The notes below the pieces were generated by a model, which was not told the DNA's origin, ran no database searches, and was given only the letters and a program-made list of their open reading frames with translations. A stretch of 64,000 nt of DNA from positions 2,170,001-2,234,000 of the forward strand of contig NZ_JAUSVA010000002.1 in assembly GCF_030813695.1 (NCBI RefSeq). The letters run 5' to 3'. This DNA is from Kitasatospora herbaricolor (GTDB taxonomy: Bacteria; Actinomycetota; Actinomycetes; Streptomycetales; Streptomycetaceae). Positions 21,237-22,820 of the stretch are shown one piece after another. How positions within the stretch are numbered: the first letter of the stretch is position 1; every line of letters begins with the position of its first letter. The translations under genes were made by a program, and so were the position numbers.

Positions 21237-21540
21237 GACTGTTCTCTCCGCGGGGTCGACCGGACGGACGGACGGTCCATGCTGGGGTCACCTGCGGGCG
21301 CCCCCCTACTCCCAGGTTGCCCTCTTCGCCCCTCCGTGGCCCTCCTCGCCCCCCGCCGGCCGCGCGCCCGGCTTCTTGACGAACCGTCCGGGCTCGCGGA
21401 GCCTGGCGTTGAGAATCCACCCGGTGCGGGGAGGATCGGCGATGGACGGACTCGGGGCGGGCCATTCCCGTCCGGTGGCGTGGCGTACCCCACAACAGGC
21501 TGCTCGCCCGCCGCCGATCGGGTGATCTAGGCTGGACGAC
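21237..21540. other. Spacer before the leader peptide
   Basis: About 300 bp between the divergent AhpD-like gene and the leader-peptide transcript. Contains promoter regions for both; the leader's -10-like TAGGCT is at 21528-21533. No coding frame was recognised. Confidence 0.4.
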
Positions 21541-21615
21541 GTGCTCATACTCGTCAGCCGTCGCCACGTGGACCTGCTCCGCGTCACGAGCATGTCCTGT
21601 CGACGCTCCGGCTGA
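21541..21615 (+). CDS. Cysteine-containing putative leader peptide
   Basis: A 24-residue frame from GTG to TGA reads VLILVSRRHVDLLRVTSMSC followed by RRSG. The core SRRHVDLxRVxSxxCR matches the short actinomycete leader peptides found before sulfur-assimilation and transporter genes, which are thought to sense cysteine or translation speed. TAGGCT lies 7 bp upstream of the GTG, consistent with a leaderless mRNA whose first codon is the leader start. The next gene, 134 bp downstream, is an isopenicillin-N-synthase-like oxygenase. Confidence 0.75.
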   Translation: MLILVSRRHVDLLRVTSMSCRRSG

Positions 21616-21749
21616 CCCTCCCCCCACCCTCACCGCGCGGCCCCCCGGGGGCCCGCATCCCCCCTTCCGGCCCCGCGGCCCCCGCCCTACCCGGCGCGGC
21701 TTCGGCGTCCCCGGTCACCACCGGGCCCGGCCGGGACGAGACACAGCGG

Positions 21750-22820
21750 ATGTCACCCATGACGCAGCAGGCACCCACCCCTCCCACCGGCTCCACCCCC
21801 GACGGCCGTCCCGCCGCGGGACTGCCGGTGATCGACCTCTCGCTCGCCGCCGGCGACGCGGACGACCGCACCCGGCTGCACGACGACCTGCGGGCCGCCG
21901 CCACCGAGGTCGGCTTCTTCCAGCTCACCGGCCACGGGATCACCGCCGAGGAGACCGCGGCGCTGACCGACGCGATGCGGGCCTTCTTCGCCCTCCCCGA
22001 GGCCGACCGGCTGGCCGTGAGCAACCTGAACTCCCCGCACTTCCGCGGCTACACCCGCACCGGGGACGAGCGCACCGGCGGCAGCCAGGACTGGCGCGAC
22101 CAGCTGGACATCGGCGCCGAGCTGCCGCCGCACGTCCCCGCCCCCGGCGAGCCGCCGTACTGGTGGCTGGAGGGCCCGAACCAGTGGCCGCAGGCCCTGC
22201 CCGGGCTGCGCACCGCCGCCCTGAACTGGATCGACCGGCTCAGCGCGGTCGCCGAGCGGCTGCTGCACGAGCTGCTGGCCTCGATCGGCGCGCCGGCCGA
22301 CTTCTACGACTACGCCTTCGCCGGCCACCCGCACCTGCGGCTGAAGCTGGTGCGCTACCCCGGCACCGCCCCCGACGGCGCCGGCCAGGGCGTCGGCGCG
22401 CACAAGGACTACGGCTTCATCACCCTGCTGCTGCAGGACAGCGTCGGCGGCCTCCAGGTGGAGCGTGCCGACGGGTCCTTCCTGGAGGTGCCGCCCATGG
22501 AGGGGGCCTTCGTGGTCAACCTCGGTGAGCTGCTGGAGGTCGCCACCGACGGGTACCTCAAGGCCACCAACCACCGGGTGGTGAGCCCGTCCGGCGCCCG
22601 CGAACGGTTCTCCGTCCCGTTCTTCTACAACCCGCGCCTGGACGCCCACATCGAACCGCTGGACTTCCCGCTCGCCCACCACGCGCCGGGCGCCACCCAG
22701 GACCCGGGCAACCCGCTCTTCGCCGACTTCGGCCGTAACGAGCTGAAGGGCTACCTGCGGGCGCACCCGGAGGTGACCCGCCGGCACCACGCCGACCTGC
22801 TGGAGAGCGGCTCGCGGTAG
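21750..22820 (+). CDS. Isopenicillin N synthase family 2OG-Fe(II) dioxygenase-like protein
   Basis: 356 residues. The N-terminal DIOX_N part reads LPVIDLSLAAGDADDRTRLHDDLRAAATEVGFFQLTGHGI. The jelly roll carries the iron triad HxD...H: GVGAHKDYGFITLLLQD and LKATNHRVVSPSG, and the RFSVPFFYNP segment supplies the Arg-x-Ser that binds the co-substrate carboxylate. A second ATG three codons on (21759) is possible. No other beta-lactam genes are present, so antibiotic synthesis is unlikely; such proteins are common stand-alone oxygenases. The upstream leader peptide suggests attenuation-type control. Confidence 0.88.
   Translation: MSPMTQQAPTPPTGSTPDGRPAAGLPVIDLSLAAGDADDRTRLHDDLRAAATEVGFFQLTGHGITAEETAALTDAMRAFFALPEADRLAVSNLNSPHFRGYTRTGDERTGGSQDWRDQLDIGAELPPHVPAPGEPPYWWLEGPNQWPQALPGLRTAALNWIDRLSAVAERLLHELLASIGAPADFYDYAFAGHPHLRLKLVRYPGTAPDGAGQGVGAHKDYGFITLLLQDSVGGLQVERADGSFLEVPPMEGAFVVNLGELLEVATDGYLKATNHRVVSPSGARERFSVPFFYNPRLDAHIEPLDFPLAHHAPGATQDPGNPLFADFGRNELKGYLRAHPEVTRRHHADLLESGSR

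Follow-up and report, generated by a model that had tools for sequence, protein, structure and literature searches.

Why would a leader peptide of a family that usually precedes sulfur and cysteine genes stand directly upstream of a stand-alone oxygenase with no known sulfur role? The question is raised by a locus in the window, the 64,000-nt stretch of Kitasatospora herbaricolor DNA analyzed here (Table 1). The downstream gene encodes, as an earlier note on this DNA had proposed, an isopenicillin-N-synthase-like protein, with both Pfam domains over their gathering scores (DIOX_N, 113 bits; 2OG-FeII_Oxy, 82.7 bits). Its start is likely the second of two candidate codons, with the ATG at 21750 being a mechanical assignment. 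We present here the comparative analysis of the leader, its link to the oxygenase, and its predicted mode of action. Our main reading, to which we give a probability of about 0.7, is that a cis-acting, translated, cysteine-responsive leader of NCBIfam family NF042934 controls the oxygenase.

Table 1. Features of the leader-oxygenase locus, with positions in the window
Feature	Position	Strand	Remarks
-10 promoter element TAGGCT	21528..21533	+	7 nt ahead of the leader GTG
Leader peptide ORF, VLILVSRRHVDLLRVTSMSCRRSG and stop	21541..21615	+	GTG start, TGA stop, 24 residues, probably leaderless
UGU Cys codon, nine residues after the invariant Asp	21598..21600	+	proposed sensor codon; TGT in 95/95 oxygenase leaders
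Leader tail (GACG, UCC, GCUG), a possible pairing partner of the oxygenase ribosome-binding site	21602..21614	+	duplex -14.0 kcal/mol
Untranslated stretch between leader and oxygenase	21616..21758	+	no intrinsic terminator, no second TAnnnT found
Ribosome-binding-site region CAGCGGAUGUC, just before ATG 21759	21744..21754	+	complementary to the leader tail
2-Oxoglutarate/Fe(II) oxygenase, DIOX_N (isopenicillin-N-synthase-like) superfamily	21759..22820	+	PF14226, PF03171

The leader had been placed at 21541-21749 and its peptide quoted as 20 residues. The ORF fills the first part of that interval, with the remainder (21616-21749) being intergenic, and reads four residues longer from GTG to TGA. 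The whole peptide matches NF042934 ("putative leader peptide"; 27.1 bits, cutoff 27, E 2.2e-6); in a six-frame scan of the genome with the same profile, the window leader alone gave 25.2 bits, below the cutoff. It carries an R-x-H-V-D-L core followed by a Cys nine residues after the Asp, a pattern derived from the members collected here, and this one Cys codon is not part of a run. A Pfam search of the peptide returned no match, and an Rfam scan of the window returned no family over threshold.

The likeness to the NF042934 type (cis_reg_atten) lies in the sequence match, in the short ORF of leaderless type, and in the Cys near the C terminus. The locus differs from it in its target, a stand-alone DIOX_N oxygenase without a known sulfur role, and in its leader tail, whose complementarity to the ribosome-binding site of the target had no counterpart in 33 pairs with other genes. 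The mycobacterial polycysteine attenuators (Ms4527A type, NF042936) are likewise short ORFs of leaderless type with Cys codons and a proposed downstream control, and the R-x-H-[VI]-D-[LF] core is common to both, but the window leader has one Cys codon where they have a run, and it scores 24.9 bits against NF042936, below the cutoff of 45. By these profile scores, the window leader belongs to NF042934, outside the polycysteine subgroup, although it would act in the manner of those attenuators. In the accessible parts of published work, cysteine-rich short ORFs before mycobacterial genes are described or cited as cysteine-responsive attenuators (PMC4633059, PMC9031893, PMC9094748, PMC13236596), those of M. 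smegmatis as attenuators of downstream translation (PMC9031893, a review, and PMC13236596, a paper of 2026; the primary work is that of Canestrari et al. 2020). The accessible text of an S. lividans reannotation gives eight leader peptides, with the HVD motif in none of the sequences printed there (PMC8079986).

The promoter of the leader is conserved in its spacing. In 94 of 95 leader loci, TAnnnT precedes an in-frame start codon (ATG or GTG) by 6 nt (74 loci) or 7 nt (20 loci), compared with 2.4% of shuffled upstream sequences with one start tested each; the sole locus without this spacing, L081, has a divergent leader. With the start set three codons before the leader core, none of the 95 loci shows GGAG, AGGA, or GAGG where a Shine-Dalgarno sequence would be expected. 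Because the -10 spacing is conserved, a leaderless mRNA, which the earlier note had thought probable, is strongly indicated, with its start probably at or beside the leader GTG. Upstream of the leader promoter, a palindrome, GTGA-N6-GNCAC, occurs in 16 loci of other genera (L046-L050, L053, L059-L061, L063, L065, L067, L068, and L071-L073), 12 of them with it exactly 48 nt before the start; it is perhaps an activator or repressor site. The palindrome was searched for with one expression, which gave 17 hits among 94 loci and did not match L051 and L052.

The earlier note made its case depend on a translated leader and on an mRNA shared by leader and oxygenase, and on both points the sequence, as far as it goes, agrees with it. 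Over 16 core codons, pN/pS among 50 genus loci is 0.147 in frame versus 3.0 and 9.5 out of frame; among 45 loci from other genera, it is 0.47 in frame versus 1.36 and 1.58. Substitutions are of the coding type, indicating that the leader is translated. Scans of 21300-21900 for intrinsic terminators and for sigma-70 promoters, the latter not modeling those of streptomycetes, found none. A TAnnnT string lies between leader and oxygenase in just 4 of 93 loci, and the window is not among them.

Conservation of the leader-oxygenase linkage, which had been suggested as a check, extends across genera. Within the genus, 69 of 70 genomes carry the oxygenase (E at most 1e-60); in a sample of the family, 118 of 200 do. 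From these, 110 loci were compared: 103 orthologues (at least 64% identity) and, tallied separately, 7 paralogues (at most 54%). The comparison does not include G085 or 16 of the genus matches, of which 15 are main copies and the other a second copy. Leaders directly upstream on the same strand were detected using an HMM built from found leaders and a regular expression. They precede 95 of the 103 orthologues versus none of the 7 paralogues, the orthologues without one being L043, L070, L077, L078, L093 (a partial second copy), L113, L115, and L118. A set of 80 named loci, some of whose species also occur in the first set, has leaders in 72, found by the expression in 66 and by eye in 6 (L244, L248, L249, L252, L257, and L260). 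Its loci without a leader are five Catenulispora copies (80-85% identity), L207, L213, and L218.

Outside the family, 22 of 30 matches were examined (17 loci and 20 longer ones, overlapping), and 1 of the 22 has its own leader. This is L182 (again L277), a 49% homologue from another actinobacterial family, with an NF042934 leader, MSSVLVRRVHVDLLRTNSSLCRG, a -10 box, and the UGU. By eye, L277 (genome G234) is flanked by pdxS-like and pdxT-like genes. The conserved upstream position puts the leader peptide far from chance, with the leader, its mark of translation, and its linkage all standing on comparison between genomes. Among the papers listed by literature searches, with subscription papers mostly outside their reach, none deals with this leader-oxygenase pair; the motif and family names matched one paper, on an unrelated virus protein.

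Other leaders of the same genome place this one in context. A scan with NF042934 gave 15 places at E of at most 1, nine of them over the cutoff, and NF042936 added three further leader-like places. With L014 left out as not leader-like, 17 leaders are counted, the window's included. At least 7 of the other 16 precede sulfur genes, encoding a nitrite/sulfite reductase, CysO-CysM (CysO and cysteine synthase), a rhodanese, an alkanesulfonate-monooxygenase homologue (below the equivalog cutoff), SsuE, an SsuA-like protein (well below its cutoff), and a cysteine-dioxygenase-family protein. The earlier description of a conserved family usually preceding sulfur and cysteine genes is thus right for at least 7 of the 16. 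Another leader precedes the gene for an acyl-CoA dehydrogenase that matches SfnB weakly. The genes behind L011, L016, and L009 encode a GST-like protein, a family-5 solute-binding protein, and, by eye, an ATP-binding regulator-like protein, respectively, and are possible further members of the regulon. The gene behind L006 has no NCBIfam match and may, on our reading alone, encode a carbonic anhydrase. At L287, L291, L297, and L302, leaders of the same family precede genes that, by eye, resemble those for transporters of the dicarboxylate/cystine-symporter type.

The proposed sensor codon is not the one that the window's genes favor. Cys codons in 48 window genes are TGC in 95 cases and TGT in 6 (of 101). 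Because the oxygenase leaders all have TGT while window genes favor TGC, leaders before any gene were surveyed, in this genome and about 30 others. Removal of 12 duplicates and two skips (L014 and L310) from 94 leader loci left 80 distinct leaders, the window's included. The codon at Asp+9 is TGT in 74, TGC in 2 (L288 and L311), and not Cys in 4 (stops in L140 and L144, GCA in L011, and GGG in L306), so that TGT makes up 74 of 76 Cys codons there. Other Cys codons of the surveyed peptides, polycysteine leaders included, are TGC in 66 cases and TGT in 28 (Fisher p about 1e-21 for Asp+9 versus other Cys codons, a statistic that ignores relatedness). Within the K. herbaricolor genome itself, the counts of TGT are 16/16 at Asp+9 versus 3/14 at other Cys positions. 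L140 and L144, which are CysO-CysM leaders, have a stop in place of the expected sensor Cys codon (ending ASAM-stop). The fixed UGU, established by this comparison, is the most surprising part of the finding. We know of no report of it in such leaders, and a literature search for the motif and family names did not find it reported.

The mechanism that we propose would use this codon as follows. Transcription would start at or next to the leader GTG, and a ribosome would begin on the leaderless mRNA. With cysteinyl-tRNA scarce, it would pause at the UGU, where its footprint would cover the leader tail, leave the ribosome-binding site free, and allow the oxygenase to be translated. With cysteine plentiful, it would read four more codons, stop, and leave, and the freed tail would pair with the ribosome-binding site and keep oxygenase translation low. 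Attenuation of this kind would mean that the oxygenase is probably induced by cysteine or sulfur shortage.

The pause might instead be due to the peptide. If the leader is an arrest peptide, for which TnaC and SpeFL are parallels, its nascent chain (R-x-H-V-D-x-x-R plus the Cys nine residues after Asp) would stall the ribosome at the UGU, perhaps sensing cysteine or a sulfur metabolite. The His, Val, Asp, and Arg places and the UGU at Asp+9 are kept before unrelated genes, while sensing of codon supply alone would call for nothing beyond Cys codons; polycysteine members of the family exist, however, and fit codon-supply sensing. We consider an arrest peptide possible but would bet against it. 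A wider claim would make all NF042934 leaders sequence-specific arrest peptides, with a wobble-read UGU obligatory at Asp+9, and would make the oxygenase a new enzyme of sulfur starvation that frees sulfur from an organic compound; this is somewhat less likely again.

For the proposed attenuation, the pairing of leader tail and ribosome-binding site was compared in 93 loci with an assigned oxygenase ATG, reduced to 30 representatives. Native pairs average -11.3 versus -9.5 for permuted ones (z -4.5, 0/5000 permutations), and pairs with shuffled segments are weaker (0/500, twice). Against four control segments of the same loci, the tail shows no such excess (P 0.07, 0.54, 0.12, and 0.78). By eye, clades differ in sequence yet match, with CCGCAG/CUGCGG in L047 and GCUCG/CGAGC in L103. 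Complementarity beyond permutation and these clade-specific matches support translational attenuation.

Other results count against the pairing. The complementarity fails in loci with a short gap (leader stop 42-50 nt before the oxygenase), and the best duplex pairs the whole GGA core in just 53 of 93 loci. RNAalifold, run on 49 genus and 44 other loci, gave little conserved structure and no convincing fold. In the predicted fold of the window (z -0.92), the partner of the leader tail is the leader head instead of the ribosome-binding site; an 8-bp helix between head 21553-21560 and tail 21609-21616 (GUCAGCCG/CGGCUGAC) is possible and would compete with ribosome-binding-site pairing. The probability that the ribosome-binding site pairs with the leader is 0.01 in the window and ranges from 0 to 0.99 among loci. 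As a rule for the whole leader family, tail pairing was rejected on 33 leader/gene pairs of other genes (P 0.62). Sequestration of the oxygenase ribosome-binding site by the leader tail is supported but not shown, and we hold it tentatively, at a little under even odds.

Control could also fall on transcription, with pausing on the leader deciding whether the transcript ends at a terminator (intrinsic or Rho-dependent) or runs on into the oxygenase. The 143-nt gap of the window can form GC-rich hairpins, and the accessible text of PMC8079986 reports terminator-like hairpins for some streptomycete leader peptides. Against this, no intrinsic terminator was found in the window, the middle part of the gap is poorly conserved, and ten loci, with the leader ending merely 42-50 nt ahead of the oxygenase ATG, leave little room for one. 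A Rho-dependent terminator may escape such sequence tests, but overall we regard transcription attenuation as unlikely. It is more improbable still that translation of the leader merely delivers ribosomes to the oxygenase, or blocks them, with no cysteine response: the leader has just one Cys codon, as such a role would allow, but that codon is invariant (95/95) and the leader family lies largely before cysteine and sulfur genes. That the leader is a chance ORF or a decaying remnant of a sulfur-gene rearrangement, as the absence of any other conserved neighbor in the orthologue set might suggest, is contradicted by conservation across genera, purifying selection, and fixed promoter spacing and is scarcely credible.

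The oxygenase itself says less about its role. Residues H218, D220, H275, R286, and S288 are invariant among 12 aligned orthologues and are, we assume, the metal and co-substrate residues of the superfamily. The nearest solved chains (profile A1) are 9ovh (3.4e-68) and 6jyv (7.8e-61), labeled by their depositors as an ethylene/succinate-forming enzyme and a probable iron/ascorbate oxidoreductase, respectively; neither gives the substrate of this clade. The predicted structure is poor (mean pLDDT 56.6). Cys and Met were counted in oxygenase bodies of at least 290 residues only. The window oxygenase has no Cys, and all 94 leader-linked orthologues measured lack Cys after residue 24 and have 0.43% Met; in 32 window genes, the averages are 0.67% for Cys and 1.32% for Met. 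One Cys is present in leader-bearing L182, and among the 22 window proteins with 250 residues or more, 5 are Cys-free. Because 24 of 30 homologues without a leader are Cys-free too, low Cys content does not set the leader-linked copies apart, and sulfur-poor composition is weakened as proof of a sulfur role.

Gene neighborhoods were considered as a clue to substrate and set aside for want of a recurrent gene family. Any one neighboring gene family occurs in at most 25 of 81 orthologous loci (the 80 named loci plus the window) and, outside the family, in at most 4 of 20. The exception is metY-metX beside paralogues of one genus (G073, G098, and G088; loci L334, L335, and L336), found by searching both strands. 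At these three of the seven paralogue loci, the metY-metX pair lies behind a leader, divergent from an oxygenase paralogue of about 50% identity. The leader is of the same RVTSMAC subtype (MSCPMLVSRRHVDLVRVTSMACRMSH in two of the three), about 0.5 kb upstream of the paralogue in the opposite direction, with a -10 box and TGT at Asp+9 as read in one locus. O-acetylhomoserine/O-acetylserine sulfhydrylase is over its cutoff in both loci tested, and MetX is over its cutoff in the one tested. A fourth genome, G070, has a similar leader about 3.7 kb away. The earlier note called the oxygenase not otherwise tied to sulfur, which, as far as neighboring genes go, holds for the clade in the window; the oxygenase family as a whole is not wholly untied, because paralogues of about 50% identity adjoin metY-metX in three genomes.

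A second kind of oxygenase is found behind this kind of leader. At L326, from another actinobacterial family, a TauD-type 2OG dioxygenase has an NF042934-type leader about 418 nt upstream. It resembles the window gene in being a 2OG/Fe(II) oxygenase preceded by such a leader but belongs to the TauD/TfdA family, not DIOX_N, and its score with the NCBIfam taurine-dioxygenase profile is 201.5, below the cutoff of 313. TauD has a role in sulfur scavenging. For the oxygenase of the window, we infer both the cysteine response and the enzyme's role, which is most likely to help release sulfur from an organic compound.

The observation is real and better supported than it was at first reading from sequence alone. 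The novelty lies in the target, in how far the linkage reaches, in the fixed UGU, and in the pairing predicted here. The fixed UGU turns a vague family of putative leaders into an answerable question: why must this cysteine be wobble-read? Because the leader is the only conserved neighbor of this unassigned streptomycete oxygenase clade, the clade can be provisionally assigned to the cysteine regulon. The oxygenase would probably be a so far unrecognized part of the response to cysteine shortage.
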